DNA of 26,482 nucleotides, taken from the IMG/VR virus record IMGVR_UViG_3300025655_000016, positions 1 to 26,482 of that record; one strand, written 5' to 3'. The notes below the pieces were generated by a model. The model was given only the letters and a program-made list of their open reading frames with translations, searched no databases and was not told the origin of the DNA. This stretch comes from a virus. Of this stretch, positions 846-6,094 are shown piece by piece (the first letter of the stretch is position 1; each line of letters begins with the position of its first letter). The position numbers and the translations under genes were made by a program.

Positions 846-1721
846 ATGACAAGAACAACATTCAAACTAACAACATTTAACCATGTCAAAGCCAACCGGG
901 GCAGAACAATCACAGTGGACATTGATGGACTGAGAAGGGGCCTATTGGGTTCCATGGGTACACTGGATGACAAGAATCAACTGCCATTGTGGTCACCATC
1001 GACATTCACACATGACCATCGAAACAAGATGAACACCATTGCAGTTCATCACTTGGTGTTTGACATGGATGATGGGATTGCACCACTTGATTCATGGAGA
1101 TTGTTCACAGACTGGACAGTCTTGGTTCACACATCATTCAGCCACAAAGCACATCATCACAAGTACAGAATCATATTGCCATTGGCAGAACCCATTCCCG
1201 GTGCAGATTGGGATAGGGCAGCTGTAGCAGCATCCAACTTGTGGACACATGTGATTGGTCGTGGAGAACCAGACCCAAAAGCACTGAAAGACCGTGCCAG
1301 AGTATATTTCAGATATGGGATTCCATCCAGTGAACATCCAGAAGACCATCCACAGCATCCAAAGCACATCCACCAGACACACATCCACATTGGTGACTTG
1401 TTGAAACTGGAGTATGAAGATATAATCATTGAACCACCAAGACCAAAGACCACCACCAAAGTCTATATGAATGGCAAGGCATCGATGGATGATGTGTTCA
1501 TGGATTCCAGATTCAGACAACGTGTGGCCAATGAACTGGGTGCAACTATCCAAGGCAATGAAGCAAGATACATCACTTGTCCGGGATGTTCCAGACAGAG
1601 TGTTCATTTCAGTTTGGAGCCATCAATCCCAAACAGTTACAAGTGGCCAACATGCAACCACCAGAACAGTTGTGGATGGTGGGGCAGCTTCATCGACATG
1701 GACATCAACATCACACAATGA
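846..1721 (+). CDS. Primase-like replication protein (AEP-type core plus zinc ribbon)
   Basis: The 291-residue protein resembles phage and plasmid replication proteins with an archaeo-eukaryotic primase core. The visible marks are a metal-binding FDMDD at residues 72-76, then the typical strand HKYRIILPL at 105-113 after a histidine-rich HTSFSHKAHHH, and DRARVYF at 149-155. The C-terminus has a probable zinc ribbon, CPGC at 245-248 and CNHQNSCG at 270-277, as in primases that read a template sequence. It starts 9 bases after the resolvase stop and overlaps the helicase start by 4 bases, so primase and helicase are translationally linked and likely work as one replisome unit. Without a phage polymerase, host polymerase III would extend its primers. 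The core assignment rests on motif pattern only; a replication initiator lacking primase activity is the alternative. Confidence 0.68.
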   Translation: MTRTTFKLTTFNHVKANRGRTITVDIDGLRRGLLGSMGTLDDKNQLPLWSPSTFTHDHRNKMNTIAVHHLVFDMDDGIAPLDSWRLFTDWTVLVHTSFSHKAHHHKYRIILPLAEPIPGADWDRAAVAASNLWTHVIGRGEPDPKALKDRARVYFRYGIPSSEHPEDHPQHPKHIHQTHIHIGDLLKLEYEDIIIEPPRPKTTTKVYMNGKASMDDVFMDSRFRQRVANELGATIQGNEARYITCPGCSRQSVHFSLEPSIPNSYKWPTCNHQNSCGWWGSFIDMDINITQ

Positions 1722-3034
1722 CAACAACACAACAACAATCAAAAATAGGTATGAAAATGACACGACAAGAAATGGACAGATTCAAGGCACTGATGGCATT
1801 GGCCAAAGATGAACTTGGTGTGGTGGTAGAAGATAAAGGGAATCCACCAGATGCAGACATTGACACTTGGGATATGTTGCGGAAGGTGACCAAGAAAGGA
1901 ACTGGAATGCTGACACCATTGAACTGCAGATACAACACAGCCACCATATTGAGACAAGACCCAAGATATTCAAGTCTCTGTTACAATGAACACAGTGACA
2001 AGATTCTATTGGATGACACAATGGTTGATGATGCCATGATGGAACGGATTGCACTGGAATTTGAAGAGAACTACCGATACAAGGTGACAGACAAAGCACT
2101 TCGGGCCAGTGTTATCATGGTAGCCCAAGAACGGACCATTGAACCCATCAAGGAATGGTTGACCAGTATTCCAGAATGGGATGGAGAAGACAGAATCCAA
2201 TGGTTTTTCCACAACATCTTGAATGCCAAGATTCCAGATGGTGCATCACAGTTGGTGACAGAAATGTCTTGCAAGTGGTTTATCAGTTGTGTGGCCAGAG
2301 TCATGGAACCCGGTTGCAAGATGGACACATGTTTGGTGTTGGTTGGTGCCAAGGGAATGAGAAAGTCCACAGCACTGAAGGAACTGGCAAGTGAAGAATA
2401 CTTTTCAGATTCCAACATCAACATCAGTCACAAAGATTCATATGAGCTGTTGCACCAGTCTGGTGTTTGGATTTGGGAACTGGCAGAAATGCATGCACTC
2501 CAGGGAAAGACAGCAGCCAATGCAAAACAGTTCTTGACCAGTGCCAGTGACAGATATAGACCAGCCTATGCCAAGATGCCAGTCCAACGAAGCAGAAGAA
2601 CAGTGTTCACAGCATCCACCAATGACTATCAGTTCTTGTCTGATGGTCCTGAACGCAGATTCTGGATTGTGGAGGTGGGTTCCAAGATTGACATCCAGTA
2701 CATCAAAGAGAACAGAATCCAACTGTGGGCAGAAGCTTTGCACTATTATAGACAAGGACTGGAATGGTGGTTGTTAGAAGAATCAGAAGAAAAGTTGATG
2801 GAGTATCAACAGTCATTCATCATCGATGACCCGTGGACAGTCAAGGTATTGGAATGCATCAAGATGAACCAAGGACATGCAACCACCACACAAATCATGG
2901 AACACTTGCAACTGTCAGCTGCAATGCAACACAGTGGATTCAGTCGAAGGATTGCCCAGATATGTCGTGACTGTGGATATGAACAGTTCTTCAGTGGAGA
3001 GCAGAAGACAAGAATGTGGAGAAGAAAGCGATAG
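1718..3034 (+). CDS. VirE-type superfamily 3-like replicative helicase/ATPase
   Basis: The 438-residue protein fits the virulence-associated E (VirE) ATPase family found beside phage primases. A P-loop GAKGMRKS lies at about residues 210-217, with arginine where the usual second glycine stands. VWIWELAEM, about 40 residues on, is the Walker B segment, and STNDYQFLSDGPERRFW is the family's characteristic sensor and arginine-finger stretch. An N-terminal region with EWLTSIPEWDGEDRI is also typical of the family. A winged-helix-like tail (residues about 370-438, ATTTQIMEHLQLS) may bind DNA. ATG 1718 was chosen for the ATGA overlap seen throughout this genome; ATG 1757, which follows AGG at good distance, is a serious alternative. 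The gene ends just upstream of the DnaA-box array, so the replication operon abuts its origin. Confidence 0.82.
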   Translation: MTTTQQQSKIGMKMTRQEMDRFKALMALAKDELGVVVEDKGNPPDADIDTWDMLRKVTKKGTGMLTPLNCRYNTATILRQDPRYSSLCYNEHSDKILLDDTMVDDAMMERIALEFEENYRYKVTDKALRASVIMVAQERTIEPIKEWLTSIPEWDGEDRIQWFFHNILNAKIPDGASQLVTEMSCKWFISCVARVMEPGCKMDTCLVLVGAKGMRKSTALKELASEEYFSDSNINISHKDSYELLHQSGVWIWELAEMHALQGKTAANAKQFLTSASDRYRPAYAKMPVQRSRRTVFTASTNDYQFLSDGPERRFWIVEVGSKIDIQYIKENRIQLWAEALHYYRQGLEWWLLEESEEKLMEYQQSFIIDDPWTVKVLECIKMNQGHATTTQIMEHLQLSAAMQHSGFSRRIAQICRDCGYEQFFSGEQKTRMWRRKR

Positions 3035-3092: not shown

Positions 3093-3204
3093 TGTGGATA
3101 ACTTATCAACAGGGTGTGGATAACTTGTCCACAGACTTATCCACAATACTTGTCCACAAGTGTGGATAACTTGTCCACAGGGTGTGGATAACTTGTCCTC
3201 ATTC
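3093..3204. other. Replication origin: DnaA-box array
   Basis: Five perfect DnaA boxes are present: TGTGGATAA at 3093, 3115, 3161 and 3183, and the inverse TTATCCACA at 3137. The starts are 22, 22, 24 and 22 bp apart, about two helical turns. Between them sit one-mismatch boxes (TTATCAACA at 3103; TTGTCCACA at 3125, 3150 and 3171). The repeating unit is a near-dyad, TGTGGATAACTTGTCCACA, so each unit offers two facing boxes about one turn apart. AT-rich DNA follows directly (3199-3235). Clustered boxes next to a replication operon are the standard mark of a DnaA-dependent origin. The boxes are seen; origin function is inferred. Confidence 0.88.
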
Positions 3205-3221
3205 AGATTATATGATATAAT
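3193..3221 (+). promoter_or_regulatory. Sigma70 promoter overlapping the last DnaA half-unit
   Basis: TTGTCC at 3193-3198 and a perfect TATAAT at 3216-3221 are separated by 17 bp. The -35 element is part of the final DnaA repeat, so DnaA binding would compete with RNA polymerase. Transcription should begin near 3228. Confidence 0.6.
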
Positions 3222-3227
3222 GAATAT

Positions 3228-3303
3228 GAAGCTATCTTCTCCAGTAGATATCTTTGATTGATTGTTGTTTGAGGGGCCATCCATTGGGTGGTCTCTTTTG
3301 CTT
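3228..3303 (+). ncRNA. Putative origin-proximal small RNA (about 75 nt)
   Basis: This is the stretch between the predicted start of the 3193-3221 promoter and the terminator at 3271-3307. It has no convincing reading frame or Shine-Dalgarno site. It begins near a small hairpin (GAAG and CTTC around 3228-3241) and ends in the terminator stem. An RNA beside an origin could act as a replication primer or as a copy-control RNA, or it could simply be transcription that helps melt the DNA. Its existence is inferred from promoter and terminator alone. Confidence 0.4.
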
Positions 3304-3307
3304 TTTT
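3271..3307 (+). terminator. Rho-independent terminator after the replication operon
   Basis: A hairpin at 3271-3295 pairs GAGG with TCTC and CCATCC with GGGTGG (one G-T pair in each), with a GG bulge and an ATT loop. The T-rich run TTTTGCTTTTTT follows. It would end both the early operon and the proposed small RNA. Confidence 0.7.
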
Positions 3308-3326
3308 CATCCAATACCTTGTTCGA

Positions 3327-3370
3327 TATACAGATGAAATCAGATATATACAGATAAAATCAGATAACTG
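3327..3370 (+). repeat. Left CAGAT array, 10-bp phased iterons
   Basis: CAGAT begins at 3331, 3341, 3351 and 3361, exactly one helical turn apart, so all copies lie on one DNA face. At the larger scale these are two tandem 20-bp units (3327-3346 and 3347-3366) that differ at one position. Bases 3347-3367 recur as a perfect inverted copy at 3572-3592. Such iterons usually bind an initiator or regulator protein; the binder here is unknown. Confidence 0.7.
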
Positions 3371-3440
3371 GTTGGTACTTTGTCCAGTTGCCATCGATAC
3401 TGTAGAGAAAAATCACCAGTTTTGTCGATGTCGCTATCTG

Positions 3441-3527
3441 GGTTTACATATTTTAAATATACTAAAATCAAAAAAGTTTAGTGAAAAATTCTATTATATA
3501 TAGATATATATATATACTATATAGAAC
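3441..3527. other. AT-rich core between the CAGAT arrays (possible unwinding element)
   Basis: This is the most AT-rich stretch of the genome, with A and T runs and an alternating TA tract. The tract at 3489-3526 is nearly self-complementary (TTCTAT near the left end, ATAGAA near the right), so it could extrude as a cruciform or melt easily. No gene is supported here. It sits between the two inverted CAGAT arrays and about 240 bp past the DnaA boxes, which suits an unwinding site, but this is inference. Confidence 0.5.
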
Positions 3528-3563
3528 CATTGGGAACAGTAGAACAAAAGACCATGTTAGACT

Positions 3564-3609
3564 ATCTGATTTTATCTGATTTTATCTGTATATTTTGCCA
3601 AGTCATCTG
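3564..3609 (-). repeat. Right CAGAT array, inverted 10-bp phased iterons
   Basis: ATCTG, the complement of CAGAT, begins at 3564, 3574, 3584 and 3605 (steps 10, 10 and 21), mirroring the left array. Bases 3572-3592 are the perfect inverted copy of 3347-3367. The array lies just past the stop of the minus-strand gene at 3617. Confidence 0.68.
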
Positions 3610-3616
3610 TATTCAA

Positions 3617-3961
3617 TCACTTGGATTCCAGTTGTCTGATTGCTCTTTTGACCCATCTTCTGGCAGCAGTTCCACCCCACAAAGCCCAAGCGATGGCCGC
3701 CTTGGATGTTCTGTCTTGTCTGGCCTTGGATTCTTGTTCTGATTCACCATGTCTTGCAAACCATGCATCCATCAACTTCAGCTGTTCCAAGTCAACAGAA
3801 CCAGATGCCAATCTTCTAGCAGTTCTCATTCCAGTACCGGGAACCCTTTTGCCACCTTCATCTTTGAATGCAGCTCTTTTGGACATGGGAAGAGATATGT
3901 TATAGTCGATTGCTCTTTTTGCAATCAGTTGGATGTCTTTGGGTACTGTTACAGTTGGCAT
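3617..3961 (-). CDS. Conserved-type phage protein of unknown function (minus strand)
   Basis: This 114-residue basic protein is one of only two minus-strand genes. From residue about 40 to 105 it shows a pattern I associate with a short domain found in many phage proteins: MRTARRLASG, then a helix ending in MDAWFARHGES, then AAIAWALWGGTAARRW. The function of that domain is not established to my knowledge. The start ATG at 3961 follows AGGA at about 5 bases. The gene runs towards the origin and ends just before the right CAGAT array. A TTGACA lies upstream on its strand (3994-3989), but no good -10 follows at normal spacing. It is divergent from the acidic gene starting at 3996, only 34 bp away. 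Coding status is well supported by the domain pattern; the role is unknown. Confidence 0.72.
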   Translation of the reverse strand: MPTVTVPKDIQLIAKRAIDYNISLPMSKRAAFKDEGGKRVPGTGMRTARRLASGSVDLEQLKLMDAWFARHGESEQESKARQDRTSKAAIAWALWGGTAARRWVKRAIRQLESK

Positions 3962-5668: not shown

Positions 5669-6094
5669 ATGACAATCACAACAGCCGCACTGATTGGATT
5701 GTTGGTTGGCACCATGGGAACCACAGGAACATTCATGTGGTTACAATCCAAAGACACCACCCAACAACAGATTCTGGACAATCAGACCAAAGCACTGACA
5801 GACTTGGCCACCATTCAAGGCAAGTTGGCAACTGGTGAACAAGAAATCCGAAAACAACTGACAGACACTGACTTGTTGGCTGTGTCATGTTCTGAAGACT
5901 GGATGCAGCAGAATACAAACATGCTATGTCGTGAAATGTTCTGCAGATTGCAGACCAGGGAAGGCGATGGAGCTAGCCAAAAGGAATGTGATGAAATCAG
6001 CAACATTGCCAACACATTCTTCATCATCGAGGAATGCAAGAACAACAAAATGGAGATTGACACATGTCTGACAGTATTGGACAAACGCAAGTGA
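5669..6094 (+). CDS. Membrane-anchored Cys-rich protein (spanin-like or accessory)
   Basis: The 141-residue protein has an N-terminal hydrophobic helix (residues about 5-24, AALIGLLVGTMGTTGTFMW). A Gln/Lys/Asp-rich probable coiled coil follows (30-66), then a C-terminal domain with six cysteines (CSED, LCREMFC, ECDE, EECK, DTCL). An anchor, a coiled coil and an even number of cysteines suggest a protein exposed outside the inner membrane with disulfides. Spanins have a similar plan, but they normally sit beside the endolysin, not between terminase genes. ATG 5669 was chosen because it follows AGGT and avoids deep overlap with the terminase. The stop overlaps the next start in GTGA. Confidence 0.62.
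   Translation: MTITTAALIGLLVGTMGTTGTFMWLQSKDTTQQQILDNQTKALTDLATIQGKLATGEQEIRKQLTDTDLLAVSCSEDWMQQNTNMLCREMFCRLQTREGDGASQKECDEISNIANTFFIIEECKNNKMEIDTCLTVLDKRK

Follow-up and report, generated by a model that had tools for sequence, protein, structure and literature searches.

The window, i.e., the whole stretch of DNA analysed here, is the IMG/VR record IMGVR_UViG_3300025655_000016 of 26,482 nt. It has terminal repeats of 127 bp and is therefore probably a complete genome; matches to a terminase, a tail tape measure protein and an endolysin identify it as a phage and not a helper-dependent satellite. Phages of this family have small genomes (26–30 kb). No DNA similarity to cultured phages was observed, and the best matches of the terminase among them are below 26% identity. 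Alignment against bacterial genomes returned no relative, so that neither a prophage nor a host was identified.

The genes and features of the locus

The site under study occupies a gap of 582 bp between the gene of a VapE-type helicase and that of a conserved 114-aa protein; a RusA-like resolvase, the primase-like protein and the helicase are encoded to the left of it. Arranged in the gap, from left to right, are DnaA boxes, a promoter, a terminator, a left array of short repeats, the AT-richest stretch and a right array (Table 1). The 114-aa protein is 63–95% identical across the relatives, which makes it more conserved than the helicase; its distant matches are in Synechococcus phage S-CBS4 and Limnohabitans phage DC31.

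Table 1. Coordinates of the genes and predicted elements at the locus (positions in the window)
Feature	Position	Strand	Comment
Primase-like gene, directly 5' of the helicase gene	846..1721	+	PHROG DNA primase profiles, E 3e-7; no Pfam match
VapE-type (D5-like AAA+) helicase gene	1757..3034	+	PF05272, E=7.8e-66; PriRep1 (7pds), Z=31.6
Predicted C-terminal winged-helix domain, proposed to bind the iterons	2828..3031	+	Residues 358-425; AlphaFold2, whole protein and domain alone
DnaA-box cluster	3093..3192	.	5 of the 7 TTWTNCACA matches of the genome; precedes the left array
Sigma70-like promoter	3193..3221	+	TTGTCC-17-TATAAT; position conserved in many relatives
Intrinsic terminator	3271..3305	+	Would end a putative ~80-nt transcript; left array follows closely
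Left iteron array	3326..3367	+	Four 10-bp units, A/T-rich plus CAGAT; oriented to the core
Inter-array core	3368..3562	.	Predicted melting region; AT-richest part ~3450-3525
Right iteron array, inverted	3563..3609	-	CAGAT(-) copies; oriented to the core
Conserved 114-aa protein gene, far side of the putative origin	3617..3961	-	Adjoins the array in nearly every relative

The preliminary description of this DNA reported four CAGAT copies at exact 10-bp steps (3331-3365), and the motif positions bear this out, with starts at 3331, 3341, 3351 and 3361. The four inverted copies reported for 3564-3609 are likewise all present (3564-3568, 3574-3578, 3584-3588 and 3605-3609), but only the first three follow at 10-bp steps; the fourth stands 21 bp, i.e., two helical turns, further out, and the same offset of the outlying copy is seen in relatives. 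The perfect inverted repeat, given previously as 21 bp with the arms 205 bp apart, exists with slightly different dimensions: the best one has 22 nt (3346-3367 and 3572-3593) with 204 nt separating the arms, and is nested in a 31-nt pair matching at 87%.

Both arrays are intergenic and inverted relative to each other. The score for two inverted arms with a 10-bp period is 56 here, compared with a maximum of 43 in 200 shuffles of the whole window, and a genome-wide search finds a CAGAT triplet at 10-bp spacing in this single place. The word CAGAT itself is frequent in the genome (152 occurrences observed, 97 expected), so the signal consists in the phasing and inversion and not in the word.

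The innermost C-to-C distance across the core is 207 bp. The core had been called very AT-rich, and rightly so, considering that no 60-bp stretches of the genome are richer in A+T than those found in it (88% AT). The near-palindromic character also ascribed to it was rejected as a structural element: the folding z-score is -0.81, as for shuffles, and the identity of cores between distant clades is that of shuffled sequences. Direct repeats within the core ('CATAGnnAAAA') were considered as well and were mostly non-significant.

The array layout in related phages

Relatives of the helicase in viral contigs (loci denoted by L and a number) carry the same arrays downstream of its gene. The unit is CAGAT in the close relatives L006-L010, AAATACACGT in L011-L019, ATACACGT in L020, AATAACACC in L026, TTACAG in L030 and AAAAACACTT in L045 and L046; it is again CAGAT in L038-L041, though their helicases are only 43-48% identical. 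Thus the units of the clades vary (CAGAT, ATACACGT, AACACC, AACACTT, TTACAG), while the phasing, the inversion, the AT-rich core and the neighbours are constant, and alignment of the units reveals an A/T-rich half followed by CA in common. The boxes face inward in every unit class. A motif search in the relatives indicates that phasing and inversion are kept despite the change of the unit and of most intervening DNA.

The same follows from an unbiased two-arm scan, for which no unit sequence was given beforehand: inverted 10-bp arrays are the top feature at most loci bearing the region, with scores of 46-68 versus at most 43 in shuffled sequences. Within the available DNA of family members no array was seen in L028 and, less clearly, in L027 and L042. 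The distance from the helicase gene to the array is 299 bp here and ranges from 6 bp to ~1.7 kb in relatives, the array being 1.4-1.7 kb off the gene in L038-L040.

Since the helicase as bait would bias the result, a DNA-only search of 2.9 million viral contigs was also made, using just the spaced CAGAT pattern. It occurs at 35 sites, and at 30 of them a helicase of this family (identity down to 39%) is encoded near the array; the 114-aa gene lies across the array from the helicase in all of these 30 except L068, where the DNA ends. The reversed control pattern gave 1 site in the same search, and the equivalent ATACAC pattern gave 7, all from this phage family. The CAGAT pattern allowed 30 spacer lengths and could choose among registers; hence its matches speak for the register and not for the absolute distance between the arms. 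In the related records, as in this genome, the CAGAT arrays form one cluster each. Judging by the recurrence of the two-armed layout in dozens of related phages despite changed letters, the arrays are a real and well-kept site.

The distance between the arms also obeys the helix. At CAGAT loci the innermost C-to-C distances are about 195-197, 206-208 and 218 bp, i.e., they differ by steps of one turn; the exception is L069 (188 bp), which is due to an extra copy. With one locus taken from each of only eight lineages of our own choosing, the clustering by helical turn has a Rayleigh p of about 0.001 at 10.5 bp. The stepped spacing is not simply inherited sequence, because the cores of distant clades are alike only at the level of shuffles. 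The unit-to-unit steps of 10, 11 and 21 bp fit the helix likewise.

The remaining elements of the gap are conserved to different degrees. Clusters of DnaA boxes are found just left of the array also in L056 and L072 (8 of 8 boxes) and in L060 (3 of 3); most others lack them. They are an optional addition, and their placement favours a replication origin. It appears that the cluster was gained or lost independently beside the array in several clades. The GC skew has no clear switch at the site, and no origin was called from it.

A promoter and, about 80 nt on, a terminator lie between the helicase gene and the left array in many relatives. A strict test for this unit was positive at 10 of 29 loci, which are not independent; of 2900 shuffles only 1 was positive, and of 1950 stretches taken elsewhere in these contigs, 0. 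The putative transcript has a recurrent U/G-rich stretch, GTTTGTTTGTTG. None of the known RNA families scored above its gathering threshold. The unit remains beside the array where another gene is inserted. By eye, a methyltransferase-like gene with the motif VVDPPYG lies between the helicase gene and the array in L005:6059-6700 and L008:6354-6970; in L020 and others this place is occupied by a DnaQ-like exonuclease gene, also recognised by eye.

The arrays might be operators of a phage regulator that controls transcription by looping, for which the HTH proteins encoded in the window (the Cro/CI-type one at 37-408, others at 6064 and 6396) are examples; a promoter is located about 100 bp upstream, and helically phased, inverted sites at whole-turn distances would suit looping. 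Against this, the promoter is outside the arrays and its putative transcript stops before them, an operator needs neither the AT-richest stretch nor DnaA boxes, and the layout follows the vapE helicase, after which cultured phages, too, have repeat clusters (see below). We regard such operators as improbable.

In the parC site of type II partition systems (ParR/parC) repeats flank a promoter, and two arrays of ~10-bp repeats around a spacer recall it. A centromere-like partition site would imply a plasmid-like prophage; this is extremely improbable, given the small genomes and the proteins scanned in the window, among which there is no match to ParA, ParM, TubZ, ParR or a CopG-type protein. 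The preliminary description had named a segregation protein and a looping regulator among the possible ligands of the site, and positive support emerged for neither.

Two other proteins were considered as the binder. An HTH-bearing small subunit of the terminase (TerS) is encoded 1.3 kb downstream, and some packaging (pac) sites contain repeats, so that the arrays could mark the packaging start. The TerS proteins of the CAGAT and ATACACGT clades share 80-84% identity, whereas that of the CAGAT-bearing L065 is only 63% identical; TerS thus does not track the unit. At these loci the array moreover stays in the gap between the helicase side and the 114-aa gene, and we see next to no chance that it is a pac site. 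The strong conservation of the 114-aa protein, and the place of its gene beside the array in nearly all relatives, might be expected if the site were an origin or a structural site bound by this protein. It does not track the unit either, being 81-84% identical in clades whose unit differs and about 66% in one that shares the unit; its role as the binder is very improbable.

The helicase as candidate reader of the unit

The AlphaFold2 model of the helicase is confident (pLDDT 87). Its residues 35-357 superpose on the replication initiator of the pathogenicity islands of Staphylococcus aureus (SaPI), PriRep1 (7pds), with an rmsd of 2.4 Å over 310 residues, and the structural runner-up has a Z of 14.0; the profile match to 7pds has E=1.2e-40. 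PriRep1 is thus the closest solved structural relative of the phage helicase.

The last 68 residues are modelled as three helices and a two-stranded wing. Nearly all Foldseek matches listed for it are DNA-binding proteins of the winged-helix type, with weak E-values (at least 0.08); a profile search of the PDB using this region alone gave no match.

Between the CAGAT and ATACACGT clades the predicted recognition helix carries the fixed changes 390 M to N, 393 S to K/Q, 396 S to T and 397 R to K; many fixed changes between these clades are also found in the N-terminal region of the helicase. Arg 397 occurs wherever a CAGAT locus has a full helicase, and also at two loci with other units. Across the family, the divergence of the recognition helix is not larger for loci with different units than for those with the same unit at equal divergence of the helicase core; the coevolution of helix and unit is visible only locally, between the two clades mentioned. 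The general covariation test being negative, the claim of specificity rests on homology and not on covariation. By homology, then, the helicase is the best candidate for the reader of the unit.

Proposed origin and its relation to known systems

We consider it very probable that the site is the replication origin of the phage, with the VapE-type helicase binding to the arrays, two hexamers loading head-to-head and the core melting. A phage initiator was among the ligands suggested in the preliminary description, and this suggestion gained strength: the array accompanies the VapE-type helicase, the layout is the one described for SaPI origins, the AT-richest stretch of the genome lies between the arms, and DnaA-box clusters adjoin in three or more clades. 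The course of events that we infer from these data begins with binding and leads, via hexamer loading and melting, to origin activity. The C-terminal winged-helix domain of the helicase would bind the 10-bp units of each array. With units recurring about once per turn in arrays of opposite orientation, two helicase rings would face each other; they would assemble at a distance of ~20 turns on either side of the AT-rich core and melt it, whereupon replication would start. Priming would probably be carried out by the primase-like protein encoded upstream, and the host DnaA may assist via the neighbouring boxes in this clade.

SaPI origins offer the closest parallel. In SaPI, the iterons follow the rep gene directly, and the Rep protein acts on them with its C-terminal domain (PMC7581432); repeats of opposite orientation load two head-to-head hexamers at these origins (PMC9894130). 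Here, too, the putative origin is directly 3' of the gene of a helicase related to PriRep by homology, and short opposed repeats flank an AT-rich region in it. The SaPI helicase has a primase gene upstream, the phage helicase a primase-like one. The differences are that the element described here is a complete tailed phage and not a satellite, that the site has 10-bp phased units with the arms ~200 bp apart in one-turn steps, a spacing that may set it apart from SaPI origins, and that some clades of the phage family additionally possess DnaA boxes and the promoter-terminator unit.

The SCCmec Cch2 origin (AAGTG iterons) also has a D5-like helicase, the isolated C-terminal domain of which binds downstream iterons; it differs in having only three of them, and the available text of the source reports no two-armed inverted layout (PMC7581432). 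In SV40, two opposed hexamers of T-antigen melt DNA at the origin (PMC9894130); T-antigen, however, recognises its sites by an N-terminal domain (PMC7581432). It is only distantly related to the phage helicase.

In origins of the lambda type and those of iteron plasmids the iterons adjoin a melting region rich in A+T, and in some cases there are DnaA boxes as well. Their initiators are not helicases, and the iterons usually form one direct array, which in lambda is within the O gene; the arrays considered here are intergenic and inverted rather than a single direct array in the initiator gene.

VapE-type helicases are common in phages (617 records of cultured phages matched). Six cultured phages with a more distant VapE were sampled, and five have repeat clusters on both strands just 3' of vapE, with other units and spacings: Marinobacter PS3, Pseudomonas U5, Synechococcus S-LBS1, Staphylococcus 2638A and Bacteroides F2. 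Iterons after vapE therefore look like a general feature, of which the two-armed layout with 10-bp units and ~200 bp between the arms is this family's version. In Synechococcus phage S-LBS1 the primase/helicase gene is followed by a long run of GCCTAACCT repeats in both orientations (L094:5140-5518). We believe that the best explanation of the site is an iteron origin of the SaPI kind, in a new variant from an uncultured phage family.

Few origins appear to have been mapped for VapE-type helicases, common as these are in phages and islands. With dozens of probable natural origins that share a layout but use several different units, the family allows recognition, spacing rules and head-to-head loading to be tested, and the layout can serve as a sequence signature for locating origins in phages available only from metagenomes. 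Tentatively, the origin could be viewed as a geometric device, in which opposed arrays are held in helical register ~18-21 turns apart, the letters are changeable, and the short transcript next to the origin takes part in initiation. This proposal is possible, though we have considerable doubts about it; if it is true, the family would be a natural series for the choice of VapE origins and the loading of opposed hexamers, with the winged helix as the specificity module.

Some minor observations concern repeats elsewhere. CATCCA recurs at short, near 10-bp spacing at 1231-1387, within the primase-like gene of the window, and in that of relatives; this is probably just coding sequence. No family helicase is present in the available DNA of the other 5 of the 35 CAGAT pattern sites (L061, L074, L076, L080, L087). 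Two of these contigs contain inverted CAGAT-type arrays with two-arm scores of 50-52 (L061:1017-1262 and L074:10434-10669), which are perhaps origins of other phages.
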